From: an uncultured Spartobacteria bacterium
Lineage (GTDB): Bacteria > Verrucomicrobiota > Verrucomicrobiia > Chthoniobacterales > Chthoniobacteraceae
Direction: 5' to 3'
Length of the DNA stretch: 51,713 bases
Assembly: GCA_903929475.1 (NCBI GenBank)
Contig: CAIYUV010000143.1
Location: 1 to 51,713 of the forward strand
Each line of letters opens with the position of its first letter. Position 1 is the stretch's first letter. Below the pieces are notes generated by a model. It was given only the letters and a program-made list of their open reading frames with translations. It did not search any database and had not been told where the DNA came from. Below are positions 901 to 40,502 of the stretch, one piece after another. A program made the position numbers and the translations under genes.

Positions 901-1130
901 GCCCTTTCATGATTGCCTTTTATAGTGAATGGCGTTCTTGGATCGGGTTTCAGCGAAATGAAACAGACTGAAAAATGGCTGAAAACTAAAGACCATGGGC
1001 TGGATCCCCATGCGGTTTGTGATCAATGGCAATGGCGATCGCGAAGTTTTTTGTCGTCATTCATTGTGATTTCCGCGTTTTGGATAAGTTAAGTGGTCGT
1101 ATCACATTCGACTTTTATGCTGGCCTCCAG

Positions 1131-7100: not shown

Positions 7101-8879
7101 GTGGCGGCAGCGGCAACATTGGACGTCGCTGGCTATAACAATACGATTGGTTCGCTGATCGGGGCGGGCAGTGTGACTCTCGGGACAGCGACACTTTCCA
7201 TCGGCAACGATAACACCAGCCCGGCAGCTTTTACCGGCACGATTTCGGGCGTGGGAGGTTCCGTGATGAAGGTCGGCTCGGGGATATTCATCCTCGCTGG
7301 GCCCGGCACCTACACGGGGCAGACGATTGTTTCGCAAGGCACGTTTGATTTTAAAATGCCCGCTGCGCTCTATAACGGTGACAGTAGCAAGTGGACGAAT
7401 ACAAACATCACGGTCAATTCCGGGGCGACACTTGGGTTTGCCGTGGGTGGTGCCGGGCAGTTCGTAACCGCAGATATCAACACTCTCCTCGATGGCGCGC
7501 ATCTCGGCGCCAGCGACGGCGTCTCCGGCCTGCTGAACAATGCCAGCATTGGGTTCGATACGGGGGGAGGGGACTTCACAATTGATGGCTCAATCAGCAA
7601 TTCCAACGGCGGAGCCAATGTGCTGGGTGTGCAAAAACTTGGAGCAAATACCCTGACATTCACCGGCGTAAATAACTACAGCGGTGTGACCACGATAAGC
7701 GCAGGCATTTTGCAAATCGGCAACGGTGGCACCACGGGAAATCTCGGTAGCGGCAACGTGGTCAACAATGGAAGTCTGGTTTTCAACCGCAGCGATTCGC
7801 TTGCTGTCTCCAATGCAATCAGCGGAACTGGTTCACTCACGAAACTTGGAGCCAGCACGCTTGCACTCAGCGGAGCGAGCACTTTCACGGGTGCAACGAC
7901 GATCAATGGCGGCGTCCTTTCCATAGACAGCATTCAGAACGCAGGAAGCGCTACACCGAACGCACTGGGCAACCCGGTTGCAGGCGCGAACAGCGTCATC
8001 AATCTCGCAGATTCCTGCACTTTGCGATATACGGGTTCCGCGAATGGTAGCAGTGATCGTGTCGTCAACTTGAGTTCTGCGTCTGACGGAACATACACGC
8101 TCGATGCCAGCGGAGCCGCGCCATTTGTGCTGACCAGCGCCATTACCACGAATGCCACCAGCGGCGCGACCACGCTCGTGCTTACCGGTGGTGGCAGCGG
8201 AGCCGCTGGTGGAGCCATTATAAACGGCACTGGCGCCAGCGTCACCTCGGTAATTAAAAATGGTGTCGGCACATGGACGGTTGCCAGCACGAATACCTAC
8301 ACCGGCCCGACGAACGTGAACGCGGGAACACTGGCGATGAACGGCTCCATTAGTGGCAGCACGACGAATGTGAACAACGGCGGCACACTGACGGGCGACA
8401 ACGGGACATTTGGCAATGTCATCGTCAACGGCGGCGGGACATTTTCACCGGGAGGCAACTTGGTCGGGACTCTCACCGTCGCCGGCGATCTCACTCTGAA
8501 GGATTCTTCGATGCTGCTTGCCCAGTTTAATTCCGACGCGCCTGCGGTAGACGGGATCATCGTCAACGGCAATTTGAACATTTCCAACGGGGCGGTGCTG
8601 AACGTGAGCGACATCGGGTCGAGTGCCAGCAGCATTTTCGATCTACCCGCACCGTTCATCACCTACAGCGGGACGTGGAATGGTGGCACATTTCTAGGAA
8701 TGCCAGACGATAGCTACTTTATGAGCGGCGGGCAGGCATATTTCATCTCCTACGATGGGGCGGGCGGTGAAAGCATTGTCACACTCACGATGGTCGCCGT
8801 TGTTCCGGAACCCGGTGTGGCAGTATCGCTGCTCGGCGGTCTCGGTCTCCTCCTCGGCGTGCGCAGACGCAGGGCGTGA
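1131..8879 (+). CDS. Giant autotransporter-repeat PEP-CTERM surface protein (2,582 aa)
   Basis: A very long secreted passenger protein. The start at 1131 (MKYINSK) or at 1152 (MLTPRR) places a signal peptide ending near VSATAA before the mature NISWTG; the frame is open from 1026, but that start would bury the signal. Most of the protein consists of autotransporter-associated beta-strand repeats with the pattern LTKxGxGTLxLSGxNTYTGxTTIxxGTL, expected to fold as a long right-handed beta-helix. There is no C-terminal outer-membrane barrel. The protein ends instead with VPEPG, a hydrophobic helix and RRRR, a PEP-CTERM tail. A second module resembling the mature N-terminus (WSGFGNGNWV..., then DAVVFNDTASAF) appears near residue 1,330, as if two passenger proteins were joined. 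Neither candidate start has a Shine-Dalgarno sequence. A role as a structural or adhesive surface protein is inferred. Confidence 0.9.
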   Translation: MKYINSKMLTPRRASFIRICAVPFASLFAVSATAANISWTGATDAVWSTGGDWVGGVTPTSGDVVVFDAGSVANLNTTLGTNFSIQGLKITTPGGLITIGGGNTLTLGAGGIDMSAASQDLLLNALMALSADQSWNVAAGRTLTANGIISGTNVNLNKIGLGDLILGGANTFTGTTTIGGGTLTLSGSLNGTTGTDLTLAGTGTFNVSAASGVSQGMKVLRFSGGDGTVRSTNNGGTSTVSFTSRITRVAGATGNFSLINGTQGAGGTNNITIGGELTAQLLDRGLFYNGSRYAAYDAGGFVRGLIYGADANAPSSIASGLTLGVNDATLNVDISGNITAQTTASVNTISDTGVFNITLAGSQTLSLNGFLKSGGNAATISGGTGITTTAANNEMVIRTDAAGDTLTISTPVLANGTSSLTKSGAGTLVLSGANRFTGGTIINAGIVQAGSTTAFGGATGVEGVLTFSPGSTGVVRLNGQNNTIGGLNTGAPVGAPAIENGTVGNATLTVGIAASNAYAGVLRDGSAGTLLLTKSGAGTLTLSGANTYTGATTISGGILKAGIASVAGVSGPLGKNSALTLSNSAGVSLDLNGFDTVLGSIAGGGTTGGGVSLGSNTITVGGNNTNTTYAGVISSSAGVTGVSLYKKGTGSLTLQGNNTFTGKIVIDGGTLFANDEAGTVNENKLGATPASFVSDDITIKNGGTLAMLSGTDGRTLAASRGIYLDNSGGNYTQNINTGGGDFVINGVISGPGGFLHSDASGHFGGNYRRLYLNASNTFTGNVGWVANGTKANYGGVQMNNPLALQNAAVDTSSNSSWLGVSTQNLVSSGNAVLPALGAGHAAALQLGGLVTGTISVSRTLPSMLSNATITDLILNPTVATTNQAAYEFKTFTNVIGGTGETTVNVYKTGLGSQALNGANTYSGKTSIFNGILAINTIKVIGGAANSLGQPTTVTNGTIDVGGLDGSSNPTSGTLMYTGTGDTTDRVINLASTTGGATLDMSGTNTLTFSSNLTATGVGAKTLRLQGSSAGTGVLGGQIVNSSNGATTLTKQGTGGWTLNAANTFTGDTTFNGGTLTIGNVLALQNSALNYMIGTLAFSTGINTPTFGGLTGSTSLSVASNVTDLTLSLGTGVTKTYSGTLGSDLPGMNVHKSGAGTQILGAATYTGSTSADVGKLYLNGSNATTAITVAGGATIGGTGTASSANATVADTGIVEAGSGGLGTLTLGGLSFTNTGTINVAGIGNYGSNAAINVQNSNGLIANGTAGSVTITLAGTAPGGTGTVHLIQYAGAIGGTGFGGFGLNASGLNAGPRALFTLANNTGYVDLNYSLDNPVWSGFGNGNWVTSPNLTVIPNTNWKLASNLSTQTNFIGSDAVVFNDTASAFTATISAADVAPASVTFNNTANNYTLQGGFGITGGTALNKSGSAMLTVLNNNSYSGGTIISAGTVQVGNGSSSGTLGLGLITDNGILKFNRSDAQTIGNTIGGSGSVVLDGAGGVALTGPNNYGGNTTLNNGSLTLGNATALGAGTGSLIINGGSLDSSIASLVLINNNAQIWNSDFAFIGTNDLNLGISTVSLGSTVGSRALTVSASTLTVGGVIADGTATGLTKAGAGSLVLGGASTYSGGTVVNEGTVTLNNGATLGANTGSLAVNNPNTGAGTDVVLNLNGSVTTGPLSGAIATPSGGTNTATINIATNKILTLIQSSDSQFDGTIAGAGALTKGGTGKLTLTGTNTFAGGTTLNQGTLSVGSLSNTGTGTITVNGGTFQFTGNTVSTNRFAITGGNVAFDITQPDAIFTITNYYTNASITKLGTGTLDFGGNVYYTANQGNLSLSVNQGTVRLSSTVTDPPFQDTFANVNDVQTGATLKLNNTQGRQVVPTGTFNMSGGTFDLNGNNSNYNPQLTGTGTVTNSNAAAAKLMVHPSNVKTFSGNIVDGTGVVGLQFTNQFAYGAIQTAVWTLAGNNTYSGATTVGVGKLQAGSVTAFSPKSSYTVAAAATLDVAGYNNTIGSLIGAGSVTLGTATLSIGNDNTSPAAFTGTISGVGGSVMKVGSGIFILAGPGTYTGQTIVSQGTFDFKMPAALYNGDSSKWTNTNITVNSGATLGFAVGGAGQFVTADINTLLDGAHLGASDGVSGLLNNASIGFDTGGGDFTIDGSISNSNGGANVLGVQKLGANTLTFTGVNNYSGVTTISAGILQIGNGGTTGNLGSGNVVNNGSLVFNRSDSLAVSNAISGTGSLTKLGASTLALSGASTFTGATTINGGVLSIDSIQNAGSATPNALGNPVAGANSVINLADSCTLRYTGSANGSSDRVVNLSSASDGTYTLDASGAAPFVLTSAITTNATSGATTLVLTGGGSGAAGGAIINGTGASVTSVIKNGVGTWTVASTNTYTGPTNVNAGTLAMNGSISGSTTNVNNGGTLTGDNGTFGNVIVNGGGTFSPGGNLVGTLTVAGDLTLKDSSMLLAQFNSDAPAVDGIIVNGNLNISNGAVLNVSDIGSSASSIFDLPAPFITYSGTWNGGTFLGMPDDSYFMSGGQAYFISYDGAGGESIVTLTMVAVVPEPGVAVSLLGGLGLLLGVRRRRA

Positions 8880-11749: not shown

Positions 11750-13993
11750 CTATTTTCCGAGCAATTTCTCCATCGTGTAAGGCTCCTTTACGCTGGCAGT
11801 GGCTGCGCGGACTTTTGCTACTTCCGGGGGCGTCACGGCGTCGCCGGTGTTGCCCCATGATTTGCGGACTTCGGTCAAAACATCGGCCACCCACTCATCG
11901 GACTCCTGCGCCATCGGCACCATGATCTGGCCGACGTAATTTTTCCCTTCAATAGGCCCGGTCAGGCCACGCAGGACGATTTTGATCATCGTGTTCTTGT
12001 CGCCGTTCACGATGGCTGCGCCTGCGAGTGCGGGGGCGATTTTTTCAGCGCCGGCATCCACGCCTTTGCCGTCGGCGCCGTGGCAACTGATGCAGAGTGA
12101 CTGGTAGGTCTGCGCGCCTTTGGAGAGCGCGACCTCTTTGTGTCCGTTCAGACGGCCCATGCTGTTTTTCACGTAGGCTTCGAGAATGTCGGGCGCGACC
12201 TTCGCGGCTTTTGCCTTCTCGATAATCGCGACCGCCTGATCCTTCGCTGGGCTGAAGCCGACTGTGAGAATTACCTGCGCGACGACGTTGGCATCCGGAT
12301 CGGCAGCGAGTGGTTCGATTTTCGCGAGGAATTTGTCATCGCCATTTTTCAGCAAACGCTCGCCGGTGCGGAGCGCGGCCATGCGCACGCGCGGGTCGGT
12401 GTCGCGGAGTTTTTCGCCGAGCAAATCGCCATCAATCACGTCCATTCCCTCCAGCGTCCAGAGCGCGTGCATCCGGCCCAGTGGCTCCTTGCCGGTGCGC
12501 GCGAGTGCTTTCAGCGCAGGGACGACGGACAGGTCGCGTTTTAAAACGAGCAGCTTCTGCGCGGTGTCACGCCACCAGCCATTTGGATGGGAAAGGTGCG
12601 CGACGAGTTGCGCTGGCGTTTCATCGAGCATCTTCGGATCTGCGGTTTTCTTCGTGGTGGTGCTCACGATGCGCCAGATGCGACCGCGTCCGATGTTCTT
12701 ATCCAGCCCGGCTTCGAGAATGCGGTCGCGCAGATAGCCCTTCACCCACGCGCCCTCTTGGATGATGCCGCGATACATGTCCACGATGTAGAGGCAGCCA
12801 TCGGGCCCGGTTGCCAGATGGATCGGGCGGAAATTGCGGTCGCTCGATGCGATGAACTCTTTTTTCTCCGAGTCGTAGGCGTTCGTGAGCATGATTTTTC
12901 CATCCACATTGCTGACTTTCGCGCGGCGGATGAGACGCCCGACCGGCTCGCCGATGAAGAGATCGCCGTAGAGTTCCTTCGGCAAATTGTCGCCGCGATA
13001 AATCGTCTGCCCGCACGAAGCGGTGAAATGATTCAGCGTCTTGTCCGGGCGATTGCGACCCGGGCCGCCCTGCACGTCGGGCGTCGCGATGATTGGCCAC
13101 GGGTCCTGAAAGTTTGGCGACAGGTCGCCTTTGAGGTTCAAGTTTCCATACGCACGCTGCATCTGAAATCCATACGCTGGCTGCTCCATGCCCGCAGAAG
13201 AATAATACATCCGCCCCATGTCATCCTGCGTGATTCCCCATTGCGCGAAATGCTTGAAGCTCGGCTCCGCTTCCATCGCACCGCGCGTGAACCGCAGCCT
13301 CTGCCAGCTCATCGCCGTGTAAATCCAGTTGTCCAGATTCCACATCAAGCCGCTGTCCTGATGCTCGAGGTTTCCCTCCACCTTGATCGCGTTGCCTTCG
13401 TAAACGAGCGTTTTCTCATCCGCCACACCATCGCGCTTTGTATCGCGGTAGCTGTAGAGTTTCTTCGAGTAAGTCTCACCGATGAGCACACGACCATCGA
13501 GCGGCAGGAGCAGGCGCGGCAGCACGAGCTTGTCGGCAAAGATGGTCGCTTTGTCCATTTTCCCATCGCCATTCGTGTCCGTCAGCATCGAGACACAACT
13601 CGTCGGCTCGTTTTCCTTCGTGCCGTTCGCGTCCTGCATATAAGTGCGCATCTGCGCGACAAACATCCGGCCATTCCCATCCCACGCCAGCGTCACCGGC
13701 TCCTGAATCATCGGCTCGCTCGCCACCAGTTCCAGACGATATCCCGGCGGCAGCTTGATCGTCTTCAACTCGTCCGCCGGGCTGCGAAATTCGGAACTGG
13801 GATTCGGCTCCACCACCGGCGGGTCTCCAGCAAAAGCCGCGGCACCAAACATCGCCGCCAGCACCGCAGCCACGCAACGGCGCGCACCTTTGATTGGCAA
13901 ATGGCGAAAGTGTCGCTGGTGTGGGTTCAACTCATCTCCAATGGAACGTGCGGGCAGGTGCGATGTCATCGCACAACAATCAACACGCCGCAC
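11750..13993 (-). CDS. PVC-type membrane-bound dehydrogenase with C-terminal cytochrome c domain
   Basis: An exported putative oxidoreductase of the kind expanded in Planctomycetes and Verrucomicrobia. A seven-bladed, glucose/sorbosone-dehydrogenase-like beta-propeller starts at LPPGYRLELVASEPMIQEP and contains motifs such as AWDGNGRMFVAQMRTY and HLATGPDGCLYIVDMYRG. It is followed by a HEAT-like helical segment and a heme-binding domain with CISCH (about residues 634-638); the methionine in IMVPMAQ, about 60 residues on, is a candidate axial ligand. The longest frame starts at 13993, but the signal peptide (RRCVAAVLAAMFGAAAFAG) begins some 37 residues in. A TTG at 13900 would give an ideal signal-peptide start; an ATG at residue 9 is another option. 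Substrate unknown; probable electron transfer in the periplasm. Confidence 0.85.
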   Translation of the reverse strand: MRRVDCCAMTSHLPARSIGDELNPHQRHFRHLPIKGARRCVAAVLAAMFGAAAFAGDPPVVEPNPSSEFRSPADELKTIKLPPGYRLELVASEPMIQEPVTLAWDGNGRMFVAQMRTYMQDANGTKENEPTSCVSMLTDTNGDGKMDKATIFADKLVLPRLLLPLDGRVLIGETYSKKLYSYRDTKRDGVADEKTLVYEGNAIKVEGNLEHQDSGLMWNLDNWIYTAMSWQRLRFTRGAMEAEPSFKHFAQWGITQDDMGRMYYSSAGMEQPAYGFQMQRAYGNLNLKGDLSPNFQDPWPIIATPDVQGGPGRNRPDKTLNHFTASCGQTIYRGDNLPKELYGDLFIGEPVGRLIRRAKVSNVDGKIMLTNAYDSEKKEFIASSDRNFRPIHLATGPDGCLYIVDMYRGIIQEGAWVKGYLRDRILEAGLDKNIGRGRIWRIVSTTTKKTADPKMLDETPAQLVAHLSHPNGWWRDTAQKLLVLKRDLSVVPALKALARTGKEPLGRMHALWTLEGMDVIDGDLLGEKLRDTDPRVRMAALRTGERLLKNGDDKFLAKIEPLAADPDANVVAQVILTVGFSPAKDQAVAIIEKAKAAKVAPDILEAYVKNSMGRLNGHKEVALSKGAQTYQSLCISCHGADGKGVDAGAEKIAPALAGAAIVNGDKNTMIKIVLRGLTGPIEGKNYVGQIMVPMAQESDEWVADVLTEVRKSWGNTGDAVTPPEVAKVRAATASVKEPYTMEKLLGK

Positions 13994-21222: not shown

Positions 21223-22197
21223 TTATTTGCGGCGGCGGCGTATCATGGTTAGCGCGCCAACGCCTAGCAGTGCGAGTGAGCCCGGCTCGGGAACAGCAGT
21301 CGTTGCGGCTGTGTAGCTGTTCGAATAATCCGTCGCGGTGCGGGGGTGATCCCAGATTACGGCTTCGTCTAAATTCCCTTTGAAATACTGTGTATTTACT
21401 CGTCCACCGATGACGATTTCGTTGGCTATCGAAGCGGGGTTAATAGCAATCAGAGCCCCTTGGCCGGCTGCGGTGCCCGCTGGAGCGCCATCGATATAGA
21501 AAGCAACATCTCCCGTCCCAGCAGTCCAAGTGACGCCGAACTGGTGCCATGCGTTGTCAGAAGGCATTACTCCTGCAATGTAGTCGGTCTTGCCAAAAGT
21601 GGTGAAATGGAGGCTTCCAAAATTGCCGCCCCCTGATGTAAAACCAAATCCCCAAGCACGGTTCCCAATGAAACGTTCGGAGTCCTGATTAAGAGCGCCA
21701 TCTGTTTTCGCCCAGATTTCGATAGATAATCCTGTATAGCCTGTCGTAGCGTCGAAAGCATAGATAGCACCTGAGAAAGCTTGATTATTTGGGCCGCTTC
21801 CGTGCGCGTAGCCTGCGGCAAGATTAGTTCCATCAAAATAGGCAGATTTATTGCCTGCTACCATCCCGAGAGCGACAGCTTCGGAGCCTGTCTGATTAAT
21901 TAGCGCGTTTGCGCCATAAGTGATATCCAGATTACGTGCACCCAATGGATCGGGAGCACCACCAGGATAAACGGCAGTTCCATTAAAAGTCCCGCCAGCT
22001 GTCATGTTATTCGCAGTGCCGTATGCGCCGGAAAGGTCAGCGGTTGTCGTTCCAGATGTTTCATTCATGCTCCACCATCCGACTGGATTGGTGCCGGAGA
22101 TGTAGCTGGTGTAATCCGCCTTGGCGGTGTGCGGGGTGATGCTCACGCCTGCGAGAAGCAGGGCAAGCGCGGAGTAACGTTTAGTTTTTTTGTTCAT
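21223..22197 (-). CDS. LamG-like PEP-CTERM exported protein
   Basis: A 324-residue secreted protein. The signal peptide (KRYSALALLLAGVSITPHTAKA) is followed by a segment with GWWSMNETSGTTTADLSGAYG typical of concanavalin-A/LamG jelly-roll domains, then AIYAFDATTGYTGLSIEIWA, WHQFGVTWTAGTGDVAFYID and a second strand set ending NLDEAVIWDHPRTATDY. The protein ends VPEPGSLALLGVGALTMIRRRRK, a PEP-CTERM tail, so exosortase-dependent surface sorting is expected. LamG domains often bind glycans; the ligand here is unknown. It has its own candidate promoter and a strong terminator, so it is a single-gene unit. Confidence 0.88.
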   Translation of the reverse strand: MNKKTKRYSALALLLAGVSITPHTAKADYTSYISGTNPVGWWSMNETSGTTTADLSGAYGTANNMTAGGTFNGTAVYPGGAPDPLGARNLDITYGANALINQTGSEAVALGMVAGNKSAYFDGTNLAAGYAHGSGPNNQAFSGAIYAFDATTGYTGLSIEIWAKTDGALNQDSERFIGNRAWGFGFTSGGGNFGSLHFTTFGKTDYIAGVMPSDNAWHQFGVTWTAGTGDVAFYIDGAPAGTAAGQGALIAINPASIANEIVIGGRVNTQYFKGNLDEAVIWDHPRTATDYSNSYTAATTAVPEPGSLALLGVGALTMIRRRRK

Positions 22198-25138: not shown

Positions 25139-27886
25139 ATGCCGAACCGACTTTTACCCCGCATCCTCGCTGCCACCATCGGTCTGCTGGCCGTGAATGC
25201 ACGGGCTGCCGCGCCGACATTTCCAGCACACCCGGACGCGACGGACACGCCGACGACCTTCCCGTGCGGCAAGACGCTCGTGGTTCCCATCGCGGCGGAT
25301 GACGCGGACGGCGATGCGCTGACTTACACGGTGGTGTCGTCTTCGCCGCACATTTTTGCGCGGGTGAAAACGGGGAATCCCCACGTGAAAATGCACGTCC
25401 ACACCGACAATGACGGCAGCGGCAACCCCTACGACGGGGACATGGAATTTCAGCTCTACCGCCACGCGACGCCCGACACGGCGGCGTTCCTCGCGGGCTA
25501 CGTGCAGTCCGGTTACTACGACAACGTCATTTTCCACCGCATCATCCCCGGCTTCGTGATCCAGGGCGGCGACCCGGCGGGCACGGGCACGGGCGTCACG
25601 CCCGGAAATGTGAACCTGAACCTGAATTACCAGCTTCCCCACGAGTTTCGCCCGGAGTTGATTTTCACCGGGCGCGGGCAGCTTGCGATGGCGAATTCTT
25701 CGGGCGGCTACAACCAGTCTTTCCCGGCGAACGGAAACACGCGCTACCGCACAGGCAGCTTCACGCCGACGAACGGGACGCAATTTTTCATCACGCTCGA
25801 TCCACTGCGGGCATTCGGTCCGAGCAAGGTGAATCTGGATTTCAAACATACGGTCTTCGGCCAACTCATCCGCGGTTTTGATGTGATGACCAGGGTCGCC
25901 GCCGTCCCGACGAACAGCAACACCGACAAACCAAACGTGACCGTGAAAATGACGACGCTCAGTGCGGCACCGAGCAAGACGGACGCAGTGTTGTTGCTGA
26001 GCGCGAATGCACCGGGCGCGGGCATCGTGACGGTAAAAGTGAAAGACCCCGCCGGAAACGAAGCAACGCGGACGATCAACGTGACTGTCGTGGACGACAC
26101 GATCAACGACCCGCCGATTCTCGACGCCCTCACGCCCACGGTGATGCCCGCTGGCGGAGTGCCCTCGTTTGCGCTGCATTCGTCGGACTTGGAAAGCGAC
26201 GCCATCAGCACGCGCTTCCCCGTCGCTGAAACCAACGCTTTCGGGCAGACCACGCAGACGATCTACGCCGGGGTGAGTGCGCAGAATTTGCAAATCACCG
26301 CGAGGCCCGCAGCGGGTGCGTGGGATGTTTCGTTCGCAGTCACACAATTTAACGATCCATTTCTCAACAGCTCGCCATCCAGCGTATCACGCTACCAGCT
26401 TCTCGAAGTTGGCGTGGGCGACAAAGCAATCATCGTGACACCGGAAACGCTCGAAGCCACCGAGGCGGTGACAACCGGCACGCAGACGATCGCAACTTTC
26501 CGCCACGGCGGCGCGGCAGTGCTGCCTGCGGATTTCATCGCTGTGGTAAATTGGGGCGACGGCAGCAACCGCCAGTCTTCCAGCGGCGCGAATCCGCCCG
26601 TCACCATCGTGCGCTCGGCCACGCAATCGGGCGCATTTGAAGTGCAGGGTGCGCACACCTACGCACGCGCAGGAGTGTATCCTTTGCAAGTGATCGTGGA
26701 CGGGCCGAATGGCGCCACCAAGACGGGGCGTGGCAACGCCGTCGTCCACCCCACCGGCGCGACGCTTACGTCCGTCGGGCAAAACATCGAATTCACCGGC
26801 GCTCTTTTCACCGGCAGGCCGCTCGCATTTTTCAACGACACGACGCAAGGCGCGAAAATCGCGGACTTCGCGGTCACCGTGGATTGGGGCGATGGAAAGC
26901 GTGACACGGGCGTCGTGAAACAAGTCGGCGCGGGGCGCTTCGGGGTCTTCGGCACACACCATTATGTGGATGCGACGACTTACGCGGTCGCCATCCACAT
27001 CCATCGCAACTCGCCCGCCGCCGATGAAGTCGCGTGGTCCACGGTAAAGATCAGCGGATTCGCAAGCCCGGTGCATTTTCCGCCGTTTGCGAAGGCAAAC
27101 ATCACCTGCCTGTGGTCGGAAAATCCGGCCAAAACCTACCGCACAATCTCGGCGACAAAGACGGCGACGGACATCACGGGCACGTTGTTTCTCATCAACG
27201 GCGGCCAGATACCGACCGGAAAATGGAAGCTGAAATTCTGGCTGTCGAGCGATGCTACATTCAACCCGACCGGCGCAAACGCCGACACGCCGCTGCAATT
27301 TGGCCCGCTCACGAAGCTTCTCACCGAGCTGCCGCTAAACCCGCTGGCCGCAGGCGCCGGTGGAAATCTTCCGATCAAAAGCGCAAACGGCAGCGATTTT
27401 ACCGTGAGGATGCCCGCGAACGAAACCGGCACGGGAAAATACCTCATCACGCAGCTCGTCTATAACGATCCAATCACCGATCACATGTCCGTGCCGAAGA
27501 CCGTCGTCTATGGGCCGCTGCCGGGCATTTTGGTTTCCGCCACATCGCTGCACGTGAAGGAAGGCACGACGAACAACCCGCTCCAGACAGCCACATTCAA
27601 CGTGAGACTGGATACTCCGCCTACGCAAACCGTGACCATCCCCATTGAAATTCAAAACAGCAGCAAGCAGCCGGACACCACGCGCGCAACGCTCAATGTG
27701 GCACAGGTCGTCTTCAACGCCGGAGATGCATCGCCGAAAACCGTCATCGTCACCTCCGTGGACGATGCCGTCAAAAATGGAACCGGAAATTTCACCATCG
27801 TGCTCAAATCTGCGACGAGCACGGATACCCGCTTCAATGGAATGGATGCCAGTGACATCGCACTCAGCGTGGAGGACAACGACTGA
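25139..27886 (+). CDS. Exported cyclophilin-type prolyl isomerase with cadherin-, PKD- and Calx-beta-like domains
   Basis: A 915-residue secreted protein. ATG at 25139 starts a standard signal peptide ([16 protein letters not shown]); the frame is open from 25067. An Ig/cadherin-like strand set ([14 protein letters not shown]) leads into a cyclophilin domain with the catalytic [15 protein letters not shown] signature and NGTQFFITL. Two PKD-like segments follow ([11 protein letters not shown] and [11 protein letters not shown]), and the C-terminus is Calx-beta-like ([10 protein letters not shown] to IALSVEDND). It is separated by a single base from the next gene, so the two belong to one operon. 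Role inferred: extracytoplasmic folding or a surface protein carrying an isomerase domain. Confidence 0.88.
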
Positions 27887-27887
27887 C

Positions 27888-30800
27888 ATGAAACGCCCGC
27901 TGCTCCGCCGCATCCTTGAAAAACTCAAGCGTCGCAAACCCGCGAAACCGGAGGTGAAAACGCCTGTAAAACGCGCGGGGAAACGCACCGATTCTTCGTT
28001 CGAGCATCTCGAAGGACGCATCGCCCCCGCCATTCTGCTGAATCCCTCGACGATGCTTTACACGGACACCGAAGGCGATTTGGTCACTGTAAAATTCACG
28101 AAGGACATTTTCACGGCGACAGGTGCGGTGTTGAACGGTCAGCTCGACAGTGTTTTCAAGTTCAACACCGGCAACGCACGCACGGGAAGCGACGGCGGAA
28201 ACACAGCCGGCGCTCAGGAATTGCAAACACTGGATCTCAGCACGCTCGCAGCCATCGGCCAGCCGAACGCCGCGAGCGGCACTGGCATTTCGATCACCGC
28301 GGCGAAGCAAGGCAACCTCGGCGACGACCACGTGAACGTGGGCTACATCAAAGCCGCTTCGAGCGCTATTTTCGGCATCCCGCTCGGCGCTGTGGTGGTG
28401 GACGGCGATCTCGGTCAGATTGACGCGGGCGATCCCGCGAAGGCCACGGGCCTCGCCTCGCTCACCGTGCTCTCGTTCGGCACGAAGGGTCTCACGACGC
28501 AGGCGGCGGGCGGCAGTCTCGAAAGCAACATCACCGGCGCCATCGGCTCGCTCACTGTGCAGGGCGATTTCACCGACGCCGTGCTGAAGGTTGTGAACGG
28601 CACGACACAGAAAATTCCGGGCAAAATCGGTTCACTCACCATCACTGGAACTCTCGGCGTGAGCGCGACGAACACTGCCGACAACACCGGCATGATCACC
28701 ACGACCGGCTCCATCGGCACGGTAAAAGTGGGCGCTATTTTCGGCGGAGCCGGAATCAACACCGCACAGATCAAAGCGACAGGGACCATCGGAAATGTGA
28801 CCATCGCGGGCGACATCCGCGGAGGCGCGGGCAAAGACTCCGGCGAGATCAACGGAACGGCCGCCATCGGCAATGTCACGCTCGGTTTCAACCTCTGGGC
28901 GGGCACCGGGGAAAATTCGGGGCGCATCACCAGCACCGGCTCCATCGGCATGATCAAGCTGGCGAACGTCCATGGCGATGCAACGATCACGGGCGGCGAC
29001 GCCGGCAAAAATGCGGCGACTATCTTCGCGGGCGGTAACATCGCGAGCCTCACGACAGCGGAGGGCATCAAAGGTGGTAAGGGCGACGGCTCCGGCTCGG
29101 TGCTGTCGAACCGAACGATTGTGAAAGTATCAGTCAGCACAGTGATCGAAGGCGGCGCAGGCGCATCCAGTGGAAAGGTTTTCGCCGGCAATCTCGGCGC
29201 AGTGACAGTCGGACAGACCATCACGGGCGGTGCTGGCAACGACTCGGGAACGATCGAGGCGTATTTCAACATCGGGAGTGCCGTGGTGAAAAATTTGCTC
29301 AACACGTCAGGCGCGGTAATCGCGGGGACCGGTGTCGGCAGCGGGATAATCAGCGCAGGCGGAAACATCACCACGCTGACACTCTCGGGCGCGCTCGACG
29401 GCACGACGGCGGCCGCCAAGGACAACGCGGGCAGCATTCACGCAGGCGGAAGCATCACGACCATCACGGTGAACGGCGAGCTCAAGGGAGGCATCTCGAA
29501 ACTGAACGGTGCGATTTCAGCGGATGGAAATATCGGAACCTTGAAAATCACCGGCGGATTGCTCGGCGCTGCCGGGACTTCATCCGGCAGTGTGATAGCG
29601 GGCGGCAGAATTACCACGGCAACGATCACTGGGAACCTCGCCGGCAGCACCGGCGTGAACAGCGGATCGGTCTTCTGCGGCAACGACGGCACGCTTGCCG
29701 GCACGCTTGGAAAGATCACCGTCTCGGGCGCACTGCTCGGCGGCGACGGGGACAGTTCGGGGACAATTCGCTCTAGCGGACGCATCGTCTCACTTACCAT
29801 CGGCACAACACCCGCAGCAGGCGCACCGGTGACAGACAAATTGACCGGCGGCAATGGTTCGCACAGCGGAGCGGTGGTCGCATTCGAGGGAATTGGAACG
29901 GCGACATTCCTCGGCGCGGTGCAGGGCGGGGCGGGCAAAAATTCCGGCAGCATCATCGCGCAGGGTGCGGTGGGCACTATCAAGATTTCCGCAGAACTCA
30001 CCGGCGCTGGCGGAACCGGCAGCGGATCGATCCAGGTGCGCGACATCGTGGCTGGCGCAAACATCACGCCTGGCGATCTCGGCACCGTGATCATCGGTGG
30101 TGCTGTCGCAGGAAATGCGGGAGACGGCTCTGGGCAAATCATGGCGGAGGGTTCGCTGAAATCGCTGACCATCGGCGGCATCACCGGCCAACATGGCATC
30201 GGCAGCGGCAGCATTTTGATCGGCCTCGGCCTCGCAGCGCTTACGGACGACTTCACAAAAATCGGCGGCGCGGGCGCGATCACCATCAACGGCCAGCTCG
30301 CGGGAGGTCCCGGCAGCGGCAGCGGAGTAATCGAAGTCGGCGGGCGGATTGCCTCGCTGAAAATTACTGGTGGCGCAAATGCCACGAGCATCAAGTCTGG
30401 CCACGACATCGGATCGCTGACCATCGCTGGCGGCGTGAACACCTCACTCATCACCGCGCTCGGCCAGGCCAAACCCGGAAAAACCACGGACATCGCCATC
30501 GGCAAAGCGAGCATCACCGGCGACGTGAGCGGCAGCCGCATCCTCGCTGGCTATGACCGTTTTGGAAACGCAACGAACGGTGGCGCACAAATCGGAACGG
30601 TGAATGTGATCGGGAACTGGATCGCAAGCAGCATCGCCGCCGGCGTCGTGGACACGAACAATGACGGCTTCGGCAACAGCGACGATGCATCCATCGCTCA
30701 GGGCACCATTATTTCTAAAATCGCAGGCATTGTGATCAGCGGCAATGTCACGGGCACGGGCGGGGCGGGAGACCAGTTCGGCTTTGTCGCGCGGCAGATT

Positions 30801-30911
30801 GATAGCGTGAAAATCGGTGGTGTTCTCCAAGCGCTCACGACCGGCAAAGATGTGATTCCGCTCGCCGGAAACCCCGCAACCAATGATACGACCATCCGCG
30901 AGGTTGCTTGA
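27888..30911 (+). CDS. Beta-helix-like repeat protein with LExRIAPA N-terminal motif
   Basis: A 1,007-residue protein; the ATG at 27888 lies one base after the previous stop (the frame is open earlier but overlaps that gene). The N-terminus is highly basic (KRPLLRRILEKLKRRKPAK) and is followed at residues 41-48 by LEGRIAPA, shared with the next protein as LESRIAPA. There is no ordinary hydrophobic signal peptide. The body consists of about twenty degenerate repeats of about 33 residues with the pattern GGxGxxSGxIxAxGxIGxxxIxGxL, expected to form a parallel beta-helix. The motif recalls the LEPR-XLL N-terminal signature of planctomycete surface proteins. Function unknown; a surface or matrix fibre is likely. 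Confidence 0.85.
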   Translation: MKRPLLRRILEKLKRRKPAKPEVKTPVKRAGKRTDSSFEHLEGRIAPAILLNPSTMLYTDTEGDLVTVKFTKDIFTATGAVLNGQLDSVFKFNTGNARTGSDGGNTAGAQELQTLDLSTLAAIGQPNAASGTGISITAAKQGNLGDDHVNVGYIKAASSAIFGIPLGAVVVDGDLGQIDAGDPAKATGLASLTVLSFGTKGLTTQAAGGSLESNITGAIGSLTVQGDFTDAVLKVVNGTTQKIPGKIGSLTITGTLGVSATNTADNTGMITTTGSIGTVKVGAIFGGAGINTAQIKATGTIGNVTIAGDIRGGAGKDSGEINGTAAIGNVTLGFNLWAGTGENSGRITSTGSIGMIKLANVHGDATITGGDAGKNAATIFAGGNIASLTTAEGIKGGKGDGSGSVLSNRTIVKVSVSTVIEGGAGASSGKVFAGNLGAVTVGQTITGGAGNDSGTIEAYFNIGSAVVKNLLNTSGAVIAGTGVGSGIISAGGNITTLTLSGALDGTTAAAKDNAGSIHAGGSITTITVNGELKGGISKLNGAISADGNIGTLKITGGLLGAAGTSSGSVIAGGRITTATITGNLAGSTGVNSGSVFCGNDGTLAGTLGKITVSGALLGGDGDSSGTIRSSGRIVSLTIGTTPAAGAPVTDKLTGGNGSHSGAVVAFEGIGTATFLGAVQGGAGKNSGSIIAQGAVGTIKISAELTGAGGTGSGSIQVRDIVAGANITPGDLGTVIIGGAVAGNAGDGSGQIMAEGSLKSLTIGGITGQHGIGSGSILIGLGLAALTDDFTKIGGAGAITINGQLAGGPGSGSGVIEVGGRIASLKITGGANATSIKSGHDIGSLTIAGGVNTSLITALGQAKPGKTTDIAIGKASITGDVSGSRILAGYDRFGNATNGGAQIGTVNVIGNWIASSIAAGVVDTNNDGFGNSDDASIAQGTIISKIAGIVISGNVTGTGGAGDQFGFVARQIDSVKIGGVLQALTTGKDVIPLAGNPATNDTTIREVA

Positions 30912-30951
30912 TTTTTTGAACACAATCGCTCCTTTCCAACACTCACAAGCC

Positions 30952-33324
30952 ATGACCCGCTACTTCATCGAACCCCTCGAATCACGAATCGCACCCGCAA
31001 CCATCGTGAATCCCATCTTCGACATTACAGCAGGCGTGGGCGATACAGGGGCGACGATTGACCTCGGCAAAATGGTGGATCCGAGCAAGAGCTTCCGCAC
31101 ATTTGTTGACTTGGTGACTAATTTCGTTCCGCAAGGCCAGACATCGCCGGGCGTGATCAGCATCGAGCTGTTCGACGACAAGGCACCAGTGACAGTGGAT
31201 AATTTCCTGCGTTATTTAACCAACAAGGACACAAAGGCGGATTTTAACGGCACCTTTTTCCACCGACTCGTGCAGGGTTTTGTTCTGCAGGGCGGAGGCT
31301 ACAATGCGACGGATCCAAGCCAACACATCGCCACTTTTGCGCCGGCGCATAATGAATTCGACCCGACGGATACCGAGCGCTCGAACTTGTTGCAAACGGT
31401 GGCGATGGCAAAGGTGGCCTCGGATAACGGCGGCGGACCGAACAGCGCGACGAGTGAATTTTTCATCAACCTCGCCAACAATTCGAGCAATCTGGATGCA
31501 CAAAACGGCGGTTTCACCGTGTTTGGCCGCGTCACTGATAATTCGATGCCGGTAGTGAACGCTATCTCCGCCTTGCAAATCTCAGGAAACGAACCGGTGC
31601 AGAACTACACGAGCGGGACGCCGACACCCGCGCAGCTAATCCAGATTGTGGACGCCCACGTTGCCGCGAGCGCACTAGGCAATGCGGACGGTGACACATT
31701 TGAAGTAGTGAGCATCAAAGACGCAACGAGCGGCGCGGACACGAAGCTCGTCACGGCTACGATCAACCCAACGACTCATGCGCTCGCTTTGAAATACACG
31801 CCCGGAATGACCGGCGTAGCGAAGGTAAAAGTGAAAGTGAGCAAGACTGGCGAGGCGGATGAATTTGACGAGTTTAGTGTGACGGTGAAACCAAACCTCC
31901 TCGCGGATGTGCAGAACGATGGGCTGCACAGTTCATTCGTCCCCGGGGACAAGGGAGTGGCAAACATCCAAATCGCAAACAACAGCGGGGGTCTCGCAAA
32001 GGGGAAGGTGAATGTGAAGCTCTACCTTTCTCAATCTACACTCACAAACACGGGCGACGCCCTGGGGTTTGCACTGGACACAACAGGCCCCAATGCGGAC
32101 TTGTTGCTGGCGACGATGAGTGATGTCGCCATCAACGTCGTGCCCGGAAAAAGCACAACGATTCCTGTGAAATTCACTGTGCCTGCAACCGGCCTCACGA
32201 ACGGCATGCAGTATCGTCTGCTGGCAGAAGTAGAGACGGCAAACGGCAGCACGATTCAGGAACTCTTCACAGACGACAACGTGGGCAATTTCTCGAAGAG
32301 CGGCGTGTCACTCGCAAGCCCGGACGTGCTGCGAACATTCTCGCTGGATTTCGGCGCGGTCGGCGGAAGGAGCAAAGTCCCTCTCACTGTGCAGGACGCC
32401 GACGGACAGAACATCACCCTCATGCTCACTGGCGCTGGCACCGGCTCGGTGGTGAAAAACACCGACGGCACCGTGGACGTATCCGTATCGGGCACTAACA
32501 CGAAATCGATCCTGAGCATCCAGACGGCCAAAGGAGTGGTCGCCGACCTCGGCAATCTTTTCATTAACGACACCATCGGCGCTGTGACCCTCGGCAATGT
32601 CCATCTGCACGGTCACTTCACTGCCAGCGAAGGCGCGAAGAGCATCGTGCTCGGCGACCTCGGTAACACCGACGACACACATCCGGAAAATGATTTGGAC
32701 AAGACGATCTCCATCGGCGTCTTCCCCGTGGCTTCACAAAAACTCTCGCTGAACTTTGGAAAAGTCCGCGACTACTCGCTCGATTCGGGCATGACGGTTT
32801 CGAGTTTATTCGCAAAGGAGTGGCTCAACGACGCGACCAACACTCTGGCAAACAGCATCGGCGCACCGGGCATCGGCACATTGAAAATCGCGGGCGATCT
32901 CGAAACCAGTGTTACTGTCTCCGGTTTCGACAAGCTGAACCTTTTCAGCGTCGCCGGGGCACTCAGCGACGTGACGGTGAAGACCAACGGAAACGTCGGC
33001 GACGTGCATCTTGGCGACATTTCCGGCAGCACATTTCTCGTCGGAATCGCTGCGAAGCCCGCCGCCATTGGCGACTTTGTCTCCGCTAAAACCATCGCGA
33101 ATTTCATCGTCAAGGGAACCTTGTCCGACTCAGTCGTTGCGGCGACAAAATTCAATTCAATCCTCGTCACCGCAGTGGACGCGAACGCCGGCAGCAGCAC
33201 CGGCGGTTTTTACGCCGATGCGATCAAGAGCTACGTCCGCAAGGGCGTGGTGAAACTCAATAATCTCGACACGCCCCTCACCTTCGACAGCGTGAACCCG
33301 AATTTCGAGGCTAAGACGTTTTAG
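30952..33324 (+). CDS. Cyclophilin-domain protein with CARDB-like domain and LExRIAPA motif
   Basis: A 790-residue protein starting at ATG 30952, 40 nt after the beta-helix gene. Residues 9-16 are LESRIAPA; no classical signal peptide is visible. A cyclophilin domain spans roughly residues 35-235, with FHRLVQGFVLQGGGY (catalytic Arg, Phe and Gln present) and ATSEFFINLANN. Next come a CARDB-like segment (LADVQNDGLHSSFVPGDKG to GKVNVKLYLS) and a long beta-rich tail (GTVDVSVSGTNTKSILSI, then LGNVHLHGHF). It is the second prolyl isomerase in the same three-gene cluster but is not a close copy of the first. Presumed surface or periplasmic. Confidence 0.86.
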   Translation: MTRYFIEPLESRIAPATIVNPIFDITAGVGDTGATIDLGKMVDPSKSFRTFVDLVTNFVPQGQTSPGVISIELFDDKAPVTVDNFLRYLTNKDTKADFNGTFFHRLVQGFVLQGGGYNATDPSQHIATFAPAHNEFDPTDTERSNLLQTVAMAKVASDNGGGPNSATSEFFINLANNSSNLDAQNGGFTVFGRVTDNSMPVVNAISALQISGNEPVQNYTSGTPTPAQLIQIVDAHVAASALGNADGDTFEVVSIKDATSGADTKLVTATINPTTHALALKYTPGMTGVAKVKVKVSKTGEADEFDEFSVTVKPNLLADVQNDGLHSSFVPGDKGVANIQIANNSGGLAKGKVNVKLYLSQSTLTNTGDALGFALDTTGPNADLLLATMSDVAINVVPGKSTTIPVKFTVPATGLTNGMQYRLLAEVETANGSTIQELFTDDNVGNFSKSGVSLASPDVLRTFSLDFGAVGGRSKVPLTVQDADGQNITLMLTGAGTGSVVKNTDGTVDVSVSGTNTKSILSIQTAKGVVADLGNLFINDTIGAVTLGNVHLHGHFTASEGAKSIVLGDLGNTDDTHPENDLDKTISIGVFPVASQKLSLNFGKVRDYSLDSGMTVSSLFAKEWLNDATNTLANSIGAPGIGTLKIAGDLETSVTVSGFDKLNLFSVAGALSDVTVKTNGNVGDVHLGDISGSTFLVGIAAKPAAIGDFVSAKTIANFIVKGTLSDSVVAATKFNSILVTAVDANAGSSTGGFYADAIKSYVRKGVVKLNNLDTPLTFDSVNPNFEAKTF

Positions 33325-33416: not shown

Positions 33417-34730
33417 ATGGACAGAGAAAGCCAATTCAATGAGTTGCCAGTATCTGAGGATGCAACCTTGCAAGTAGAACAAATTGCGCGGCTGTTTCCC
33501 CATTACGAGATATTGCAACTGATAGGGCGGGGTGGAATGGGGGAGGTGTATCAGGCGAGGCAGACTGCGCTGGAGCGGCTCGTTGCCATCAAGCTGTTGC
33601 CGATCGAAATCAGCAGCAAACATGATTTTGCCGCGAGTTTCCGCCGCGAGGCGCAGGCGATGGCGAGGCTCAACCATCCGAATATCGTTTCAGTTTATGA
33701 TTTCGGGCAGACGGCGGACGGGCGTCTGTATTGCATCATGGAATATGTGCAGGGATCCAATCTGTTTGAGATCATCCACAAGGTCGGACTGGATCTCGAA
33801 CAGACGCTTTCGGTGGTCGAGCAGATCTGTGCGGCACTGGGCTATGCGCATGGGAAGGGTGTGGTGCATCGCGACATCAAGCCCGGCAATGTGCTTGTGG
33901 ACACGGAGAGCAATGTGAAGGTGGCCGATTTTGGGCTGGCGAGGCTCATAGATTCGAGTGCGGACAATGCGGGCGTCTCGACGACGGATTTCGTTTTCGG
34001 AACGCCCGACTACATAGCACCCGAGCAAAGGCGGGACATGGATGTGGATCACCGTGCGGATATTTACAGTCTCGGCATCATGACCTACGAGATGCTCTGC
34101 GGAGAGGTGCCGCGAGGTGCCTTCCAACTGCCCTCGCAGCGCATCGGCTGCGACGAGCGTATTGATCAAATTGTCCTCAAAGCGATGCAGCAAGCCCCCG
34201 AACTGCGCTACCAGTCCACGGCGGAGATAGAAGCGGACATCGCAGCTGCACGCATCCCGCTGCCGGTTGGACGCCCGGTGGCTGTTGCCAGACCAGGCGT
34301 GCCTCCCCGTCCGCAGCCAGTTGCTGCACGCCCGGTGACTGCGGCGCCGCAGATTTTCACTCCTCTCATCCCGAATCAGCCCCGCCCGCAGGTGCAGCAG
34401 GAAATTCCTTCAAAAGCTCCGTGGGTGAAAATCGCCGTCGCTGGTGCCGTCTTCGTGCTTACCCTTGTGCTGTATGTCGCCACGAAGCCGGAAAAGCACA
34501 CTCGCGAGGTGCCAAACTCACAACCTGCAAGCGTCTCCCTGCCAACACCGCAGCCGCCCGTCATACAAGAAATCAAACCGTCGCCGCCGCCGATCGAACT
34601 TCCTGCGGCAGTCGCCAACATTTTCGTAGCATGCCCGAAAATTTCACGCATTGTTTCGCCACTTTACCTCAGCTTCATCGCGATCCCTGAATTCCATATT
34701 TCATTCGGAGGCACGAAAACGGGGAGATGA
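33417..34730 (+). CDS. Ser/Thr protein kinase, C-terminus probably disturbed
   Basis: A 437-residue Hanks-type kinase. ATG at 33417 precedes the domain. The ATP loop is GRGGMGEV, with Lys59 in VAIK, HRDIKPGN with Asp153, and DFG at 171-173. A Pro-rich linker (about 285-335, PGVPPRPQPVAARP) leads to one transmembrane helix (about 336-356, WVKIAVAGAVFVLTLVLYVA) and a Pro/Ser-rich external stretch. The final 40 residues (from about ELPAAVANI) are unusual, and protein-like sequence continues in other frames until 34845, so a frameshift near the end is likely. Cytoplasmic kinase with an external sensor stub is inferred; target unknown. Confidence 0.88.
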   Translation: MDRESQFNELPVSEDATLQVEQIARLFPHYEILQLIGRGGMGEVYQARQTALERLVAIKLLPIEISSKHDFAASFRREAQAMARLNHPNIVSVYDFGQTADGRLYCIMEYVQGSNLFEIIHKVGLDLEQTLSVVEQICAALGYAHGKGVVHRDIKPGNVLVDTESNVKVADFGLARLIDSSADNAGVSTTDFVFGTPDYIAPEQRRDMDVDHRADIYSLGIMTYEMLCGEVPRGAFQLPSQRIGCDERIDQIVLKAMQQAPELRYQSTAEIEADIAAARIPLPVGRPVAVARPGVPPRPQPVAARPVTAAPQIFTPLIPNQPRPQVQQEIPSKAPWVKIAVAGAVFVLTLVLYVATKPEKHTREVPNSQPASVSLPTPQPPVIQEIKPSPPPIELPAAVANIFVACPKISRIVSPLYLSFIAIPEFHISFGGTKTGR

Positions 34731-39170: not shown

Positions 39171-40502
39171 TTGAAGCTCTCCACCATCGCAGCCACGCTC
39201 GCGGAACTCGGCGCAAAGCCGACGCAAAGCCTCGGGCAAAATTTCCTTCACGACCAAAATCTCGCGAAGTGGATCGTGGATCAAACGGACATCGCGCCCG
39301 GCGAAGCATGGCTGGAAGTAGGGCCGGGACTCGGTGCGCTCACCGAGTTCGCACAAGCGCGCTCGGAAAATGGAGTGCTGCTGGAAAAAGATGACCGCTT
39401 GATCGCGTGGCTGCGCACGGAATTTCCAAAGCTGGAAGTCGTGCATGGCGACGCGCTCACCTACGACCCGCGTGAACTTTTCTCGCGCGGCCCGGTGAAA
39501 ATTTTCGGCAACCTCCCTTACTACGTCTCCAGCCAGCTTCTGTTTCATTTCACCGCCGAGCCGTCGCCCGCAGCAGGCTTCGTCCTCACGCTCCAGCGCG
39601 AAGTGGCGGAGCGACTCTGCGCCGAGCCGAGCACAAAGGCATACGGCTCGTTCACGCTGCTCATCGGTCGCCGCTGGCAGGTGAAGTTGCTGCGCATTTT
39701 ACCAGCGCAGATTTTTACGCCGGTTCCAAAAGTGGACTCCGCCGTGGTGAGCCTCACGCCGCGCAACGACGACGAAGTTCCGGAATGCGACGGCGGATTG
39801 TTCACCTCGCTGGTGAAGCGCGGATTTGCGCAGCGCCGCAAGATGCTCCGCAAAAACATCCAACTCGAACGTTGGCCGGAATTCGCCGCCGCGCTCGGCG
39901 TGCCGGAGACCGCACGTGCGGAAGAACTGAGTCTCGCACAGTGGGTCGCACTCACGAACCTCGCGAGCGGAGCGACCGGAGACCATTCCGCGAAGGCACA
40001 GGATGTGACCGGGGAAATTTTCGACGTGGTGGACGAGCACGACAAAGTCATCGGCCAGCGCCCGCGCGGGGAAGTCCACCGGGAAAAACTGCGCCATCGT
40101 GCCGTCCATATTTTCGTCATCAACAAACTTGGTGAGTTATTTCTCCAGCGCCGCTCGCGTTGGAAAGACGTGCATCCCCGCAAGTGGGACAGCAGCGCCG
40201 CCGGACACGTGAATGCCGGCGACACCTACGACATCACCGCAGCGCGCGAACTCGATGAGGAACTCGGCGTGCGCGCATCGCTGGAGTGCATCGGCGAACT
40301 GCCCTCAAGCGAGGCGACCGGCTGGGAGTTCGTAAAAATCTACCGCGCCATGCACAACGGCCCCTTCCAACTTCCGCCTGCGGAAATCGAGAGCGGTAGT
40401 TTTTTCACCCACGAACAACTCACCCGCTGGGTCGCCGCACGCCCGCAGGATTTCGCCACAGGCTTTCTCGAATGCTGGCGTGCTGTCGCACCAAAAACTT
40501 AG
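39171..40502 (+). CDS. rsmA: RsmA (KsgA) 16S rRNA dimethyltransferase fused to a Nudix hydrolase
   Basis: A 443-residue fusion. Residues 1 to about 265 are RsmA, which dimethylates the two adjacent adenines near the 3' end of 16S rRNA: the N-terminal SLGQNFLHD, SAM motif VGPGLGALTEF (about 50-60) and catalytic NLPYYVSS (114-121) are intact. After a short linker (GATGDHSAKAQDVTG) comes a YfcD/Idi-like Nudix domain, with Nudix box GHVNAGDTYDITAARELDEE (345-364) continuing LGV; the first conserved Glu is Asp, as in YfcD-type members. The start is TTG 39171, seven bases after the peroxiredoxin stop. The 3' end overlaps the convergent kinase gene by 4 bp. The Nudix substrate is unknown. Confidence 0.93.
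   Translation: MKLSTIAATLAELGAKPTQSLGQNFLHDQNLAKWIVDQTDIAPGEAWLEVGPGLGALTEFAQARSENGVLLEKDDRLIAWLRTEFPKLEVVHGDALTYDPRELFSRGPVKIFGNLPYYVSSQLLFHFTAEPSPAAGFVLTLQREVAERLCAEPSTKAYGSFTLLIGRRWQVKLLRILPAQIFTPVPKVDSAVVSLTPRNDDEVPECDGGLFTSLVKRGFAQRRKMLRKNIQLERWPEFAAALGVPETARAEELSLAQWVALTNLASGATGDHSAKAQDVTGEIFDVVDEHDKVIGQRPRGEVHREKLRHRAVHIFVINKLGELFLQRRSRWKDVHPRKWDSSAAGHVNAGDTYDITAARELDEELGVRASLECIGELPSSEATGWEFVKIYRAMHNGPFQLPPAEIESGSFFTHEQLTRWVAARPQDFATGFLECWRAVAPKT

Follow-up and report, generated by a model that had tools for sequence, protein, structure and literature searches.

In a 51,713-nt stretch of DNA from an uncultured Spartobacteria bacterium (contig CAIYUV010000143.1; the whole stretch is called the window here), three consecutive plus-strand genes code for a multidomain cyclophilin (cyc1), a beta-solenoid protein (helix) and a second multidomain cyclophilin (cyc2). 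We found that cyc1 and helix form a co-inherited unit, with cyc2 as an optional third gene, and that the occurrence of cyc1 matches that of a short N-terminal tag with the core LExRIAPA. Based on the order and domain content of the genes, the finding of the tag in numerous large proteins of unrelated kinds and the matching distribution, we propose that cyc1-helix is the core of a machinery for surface proteins bearing this tag in one bacterial family, a reading to which we assign a probability of about one half. The find is larger than what an earlier note on this DNA had described: an undescribed class of tags together with a co-distributed cyclophilin-helix pair, the two of which may be functionally linked.

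Layout of the locus

The reading of the open reading frames confirmed the three genes in the place where the earlier note had put them, with intergenic gaps of 1 nt (cyc1-helix) and 40 nt (helix-cyc2). Coordinates of the genes and of their parts are listed in Table 1.

Table 1. Features of the cyc1-helix-cyc2 locus (window coordinates)
Feature	Position	Strand	Remarks
cyc1, 915-aa multidomain cyclophilin, predicted to be exported	25139..27886	+	ATG to TGA; orthologues in 15/40 family genomes
Putative Sec signal peptide of cyc1, 24 aa	25139..25210	+	sequence, hydropathy; cleavage site inferred
Cyclophilin domain of cyc1, residues 99-273	25433..25957	+	PF00160; PPIL1/PPIL2-like subtype
Calx-beta of cyc1, residues 812-897	27572..27829	+	E 3.8e-5, 24.1 bits, under Pfam cut-off 27
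helix, 1007-aa glycine-rich predicted beta-solenoid protein, N-terminus basic and tagged	27888..30911	+	ATG to stop
N-terminal tag of helix, FEHLEGRIAPA	27999..28031	+	LExRIAPA core 28008-28031
Beta-solenoid body of helix, about residues 130-1007	28275..30908	+	AlphaFold2 model
cyc2, 790-aa tagged protein with cyclophilin domain, putative Ig/CARDB-like middle and C-terminal beta-helix	30952..33324	+	ATG to stop
N-terminal tag of cyc2, IEPLESRIAPA	30967..30999	+	
Cyclophilin domain of cyc2, residues 63-218, PpiA/B-like	31138..31605	+	PF00160 and structural match
C-terminal beta-helix of cyc2, about residues 515-790	32494..33321	+	model, pLDDT mostly >90

Directly 3' of cyc2 and on the same strand, the window encodes a Ser/Thr protein kinase (33417-34730, +). 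Genome G031 encodes a similar kinase, with 55% identity, close to its cassette (L053, 17007-19502), but none adjoins the other cassettes; further conserved operon members, this kinase being one example, were considered and rejected, as they are mostly not kept beside the cassette. Elsewhere in the window, a single 443-aa frame (39171-40502, +) joins a KsgA-type rRNA adenine dimethylase to a NUDIX domain, and a DUF7133 protein with HEAT repeats and a cytochrome c domain is encoded at 11750-13993 (-).

Two different cyclophilins

Judged by domain and active-site residues, both cyc1 and cyc2 can be assigned to the cyclophilin-type PPIases. PF00160 matched residues 99-273 of cyc1 with E 3.7e-31 (108.9 bits) and residues 63-218 of cyc2 with E 8.6e-29 (101.3 bits), the cut-off being 21.7 in either case. 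The Arg/Phe/Gln catalytic signature that had been reported for the two isomerase domains is present in both (one of them reads FHRLVQGFVLQGG). We mapped the residues by eye to R55, F60, Q63, A101, F113, L122 and H126 of human CypA. In cyc1, the active-site residues H133-R134, F139, Q142, A185, F217, L233 and H237 are invariant in 8 orthologues. For cyc2, Arg and Gln are kept in 9/9 proteins, the F60 equivalent is Ile in one, and the H126 position is occupied by Phe or Tyr. The cyc1 protein of G039 (L055, 10981-13833) carries an insertion in the catalytic loop (HRIADLNPFEDADGSFIVQTGD), with Arg, Phe and Gln retained. The closest chains are of the PPIL2/PPIL1 type for cyc1 (E 7.6e-23), but bacterial PpiA/PpiB for cyc2 (E 7e-19), so cyc1 and cyc2 did not arise by recent duplication.

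The locus had been described as encoding two exported-type cyclophilins, which, as far as a conventional signal peptide is concerned, holds for cyc1 but not for cyc2. The former starts with a predicted signal peptide of the conventional Sec type (hydropathy maximum 2.12 within the first 50 aa; 1.6-2.2 across all 8 orthologues), followed by a cadherin/PKD-like region, the cyclophilin domain, an Ig/PKD-like region and a C-terminal Calx-beta domain that is duplicated in some orthologues. No conventional signal peptide was found in either helix or cyc2. The structural model of cyc2 (pLDDT 78) is good for the C-terminal beta-helix but weak for the cyclophilin domain; even so, the latter gave a structural match to known cyclophilins such as those of E. 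coli with Z about 11, and the middle region of the protein would be Ig/CARDB-like according to the model. The C-terminal beta-helix resembles the C-terminal part of helix (HHalign pairwise E 8e-9, a value inflated by the repeats). A well-defined C-terminal domain common to both proteins was rejected, the HHalign register being unlike that expected by eye, so that we speak of a loose similarity only.

A predicted beta-solenoid protein resembling type 5 secreted beta-helices

The middle gene had been described as coding for a beta-helix protein with regular repeats, and structure prediction bears this out. For this repeat protein with a glycine content of 20%, AlphaFold2 (8-row alignment) predicted a beta-solenoid of regular turns, nearly all beta, with a mean pLDDT of 85; roughly the first 46 residues are modelled at low confidence. 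The helix sequence matched no Pfam family up to E = 1 and none in NCBIfam, and a Foldseek comparison of structures gave no match at E <= 0.001. VIA-align gave HxuA (Z 12.6, rmsd 3.6, 203 residues), VacA and EtpA as the nearest structures, a resemblance at the level of the fold only; the general fold predicted for helix may thus be that of type 5 secreted beta-helices. An N-terminal TPS/haemagglutination-activity domain was not detected in helix (Pfam, up to E = 1), nor was a TpsB-type POTRA_2 transporter among the neighbours of its gene; the POTRA_2 matches of the source genome sit on contigs C73 and C220.

Conservation of the gene pair

We searched 40 genomes of the source genome's family and read the loci. 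Synteny is conserved well above chance, although the three-gene arrangement stands only in part: cyc1 and helix are adjacent in 13 of the 15 genomes that contain cyc1, but cyc2 adjoins them in 8 only. In these 8 genomes, which belong to three genera (6 to the genus of the source genome, 2 to other genera), cyc1-helix-cyc2 occur in the same order, on the same strand and closely spaced. Spacing among the relatives is -10 to +4 nt between cyc1 and helix where measured (the overlap of -10 nt is that of G039, where the start codon is uncertain) and 21 to 72 nt between helix and cyc2.

The pair lacks an adjacent cyc2 in G001 (where cyc2 is about 21 kb off), G002, G004 (two tandem pairs), G023 and at a second locus of G039. 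The G030 contig breaks off within helix; the contigs of G002 and G030 stop inside or just after helix, so an adjacent cyc2 is possible there. Two cyc1-containing genomes deviate from the pairing of cyc1 with helix: the two genes of G003 are separated by the ends of their contigs, and G024 (L188, 5726-11012) has two tandem cyc1 genes with no adjoining helix, which makes it the one clear exception. Looked at from the other gene, each full-length, cyc1-associated helix with an assembled upstream flank is preceded by cyc1, and neither cyc1 nor cyc2 is a housekeeping cyclophilin, those of the source genome being encoded elsewhere, on other contigs, as stand-alone genes. The earlier note had named beta-helix genes mostly without cyclophilin neighbours and cyclophilins of a housekeeping kind as the observations that would speak against its proposal; neither was borne out. 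Genes around the cassette are mostly unrelated between loci. As the flanks differ in most cases while the pair stays together, the linkage is probably maintained by selection.

Among 213 genomes of the order, we found full-length cyc1 in 15, each of them a member of this one family, and outside the order we found partial matches only. Partial cyc1-like matches outside the family occur in genus g104 (of another family) and in G317, with neither a helix neighbour nor enrichment of the tag. The distant multidomain cyclophilins of g104 (L236, 7131-10571; L237, 7339-10164) possibly represent a pre-tag ancestor type. A scan for relatives with conserved peptides yielded nothing but generic cyclophilins, spread over many phyla, as the peptides used belong to the cyclophilin core.

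An N-terminal tag on unrelated large proteins

The motif LExRIAPA was known to be shared by the last two proteins of the locus. It is indeed present near both N-termini, but it is not peculiar to them: in a search with a degenerate DNA pattern, for which the reversed pattern was the control, it occurred 12 times in the source genome (control 0) and 203 times in the 15 cyc1-containing genomes (control 12). We thus rejected the idea that it is private to the helix-cyc2 pair. Inspection of 78 distinct proteins from the source genome and its relatives yielded (I/V)-E-x-L-E-(S/A)-R-I-A-P-A as the consensus (tag peptide: IEPLESRIAPATLV), after which comes a short beta-prone stretch. The Glu two positions upstream of the pattern is found in 78/78 proteins; as it lies outside the search pattern, its invariance independently confirms that the matches are real.

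Between the likely start and the tag there are typically 7-47 residues. This leading segment has a median net charge of +1 and is devoid of a hydrophobic stretch in 72 of 73 cases, in contrast to cyc1, which has such an N-terminal stretch in 8/8 orthologues. Bodies of the tagged proteins differ, ranging over Calx-beta, FG-GAP, SBBP, He_PIG, DUF5649 and beta-helix. The tag thus has a fixed place near the N-terminus of many non-homologous, large proteins. No model of Pfam or NCBIfam matched the tag segments (the library may not hold a LEPR-XLL model), and a literature search returned nothing relevant, neither for the tag nor for a locus combining cyclophilin and beta-helix genes. The window also encodes a giant surface-type protein of 2617 aa with 14 PATR (passenger-associated transport) repeats (1026-8879, +), which is without the tag pattern.

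Distribution of the tag and of the gene pair

In the 15 genomes with cyc1, the tag was counted 1, 2, 3, 9, 9, 10, 12, 15, 15, 16, 19, 20, 21, 22 and 29 times. The other 25 genomes of the family gave counts of 0-2, and another 173 from the order gave 0-4, where the control reached up to 6; all of these 198 tag-poor genomes are without full-length cyc1. Within the family, 15 versus 25 genomes differ with a Mann-Whitney p of 1.3e-8, shared ancestry not being corrected for. In a sample of 388 genomes of the phylum, only the source genome exceeds 3 tag matches. Matches to the helix profile are found in exactly the same 15 of 40 family genomes as cyc1 (weakly in G024). Inside two genera of mixed status, the presence or absence of cyc1, helix and the tag is concordant (7 positive and 3 negative genomes in one, 1 and 4 in the other). 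Weak cases are G024, whose 2 tag matches equal its control, and G003 with a single match; both assemblies are incomplete. The candidate partner cyc1 therefore has a phyletic profile matching that of the tag, all tag-bearing genomes belonging to one family with few independent gains or losses.

Exosortase (26/40 family genomes) and POTRA_2 (31/40) served as controls, and neither follows the profile of the tag. Accordingly, PEP-CTERM/exosortase or TPS transporters were rejected as explanations of the distribution. The window contains, at 21223-22197 (-), a gene for a Laminin-G-like protein ending in a PEP-CTERM motif, and the source genome also encodes an exosortase (C52), from which it follows that a second surface-sorting system coexists in this organism.

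Proposed role and alternatives

The most likely interpretation is that cyc1-helix serves tagged surface proteins and that cyc2 is one of their tagged clients. The cyc1 protein would be exported by Sec and act outside the cytoplasm as a partner of tagged proteins; helix may be a dedicated tagged scaffold or surface partner made together with cyc1, and cyc2 a client carrying a cyclophilin domain of its own. The most speculative step is that cyc1 might act on the A-P-A of the tag, binding its Ala-Pro bond or isomerising it while the proteins are exported, retained or assembled. As a dipeptide, however, Ala-Pro is common, and cyclophilins accept it generically as a substrate, which counts against specific recognition of the tag. 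The structure comparison listed PDB 1lop, in which E. coli cyclophilin is combined with suc-Ala-Pro-Ala; with its A-P-A, the tag thus belongs to a canonical type of cyclophilin ligand, which makes its putative recognition by cyc1 testable. That the exported cyclophilin recognises the Ala-Pro of the tag as a sorting or assembly factor, with the beta-helix protein as its obligate partner, is in our view doubtful; it would amount to a new system of protein sorting or surface assembly.

The main rival is a common surface structure or export route. In its structural form, helix would be a fibre and cyc1 and cyc2 structural or adhesive subunits of it, the cyclophilin domain being used as a binding module; as to the tag, helix, cyc2 and the other tagged proteins would share one export route limited to these genomes. 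The matching profiles could then arise from cyc1 and helix being mere further surface proteins of the same route. That cyc1 consists mostly of Ig/PKD/Calx-beta-like material, that cyc2 and helix are tagged themselves and that the bodies of the tagged proteins look like those of adhesins (Calx-beta, FG-GAP, SBBP, He_PIG) all fit this explanation, which we consider possible if somewhat improbable: it leaves unexplained why the untagged cyc1 shares the distribution of the tag, and why its catalytic-site residues are invariant in the 8 orthologues.

The earlier note had taken cyc1 and cyc2 for dedicated folding enzymes of the beta-helix fibre encoded between them. Near-overlapping genes, their constant order and the intact cyclophilin residues agree with such a role, and the conserved unit as such stands; the dedicated fibre-folding system, however, appears unlikely. 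With few prolines (13 in 959 residues), none of them invariant, the solenoid (1.2% proline) would be a poor substrate for a prolyl isomerase, and the sole invariant proline of helix across 8 orthologues is that of the tag. Furthermore, cyc2 is not obligate, is often located away from the locus and bears a client-type tag, and the association is with the whole tagged class. Many further matches to the helix profile in the same genomes are without a cyclophilin nearby, which argues that a cyclophilin is no general need of such fibres. Finally, accidental linkage or a lineage effect in a young family with bulk gene loss, for which the confinement of all positives to one family and the limited phylogenetic independence would speak, is highly improbable given that the pair stays together while flanks differ between most loci, that presence and absence agree inside two genera, that G004 has two pairs in tandem and G039 one more pair at a second locus, and that exosortase and POTRA_2 have different profiles.

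The tag and the co-distributed gene pair are a first handle on the possible export, anchoring or assembly of the many very large surface-type proteins that these genomes encode without a recognisable export signal. If the cyclophilin indeed reads the tag, this would be a new use for a prolyl isomerase. Even otherwise, the tag offers a way to list the family's surface proteins and to look for the export route by comparing profiles.

Comparison with known systems

LEPR-XLL is an N-terminal domain of giant proteins (NCBI annotation), known mainly from Planctomycetes. Like the tag, it has a LExR core at the N-terminus of surface-type proteins of very large size; the tag, however, ends in IAPA and not in xLL. 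LEPR-XLL is not known to have a link with a cyclophilin. A full-text literature search for it returned passing mentions of the name only (e.g. PMC9611531).

With PpiA/PpiB, cyc1 and cyc2 share the catalytic domain, which is however embedded here in multidomain proteins of roughly 785-1059 aa. Passengers of type 5 secretion (TPS, autotransporters) have a beta-helix fold as predicted for helix, but helix is without a TPS-domain match, a Sec signal or an adjacent gene for an outer-membrane transporter. Among the periplasmic helpers of type 5 secretion (SurA, FkpA and Skp), those of the prolyl-isomerase type are SurA and FkpA (PMC8151025); these are of the parvulin or FKBP type, in contrast to the cyclophilins described here, and cyclophilins are not mentioned in that review.

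The inference from many tagged proteins to one partner gene of matching distribution follows the logic used by Haft et al. 2006 for PEP-CTERM/exosortase (PMC1569441). In PEP-CTERM/exosortase, LPXTG/sortase, GlyGly-CTERM/rhombosortase and MYXO-CTERM/myxosortase, as in our case, dozens of envelope proteins in a genome that are otherwise unrelated carry a short tag, together with a co-distributed dedicated gene. Those four systems use a C-terminal tag with a membrane-spanning segment, whereas the tag reported here is N-terminal and without a hydrophobic segment; and while their partner is a protease or transpeptidase of the membrane or cell wall, the candidate partner here is a cyclophilin together with a beta-helix protein.
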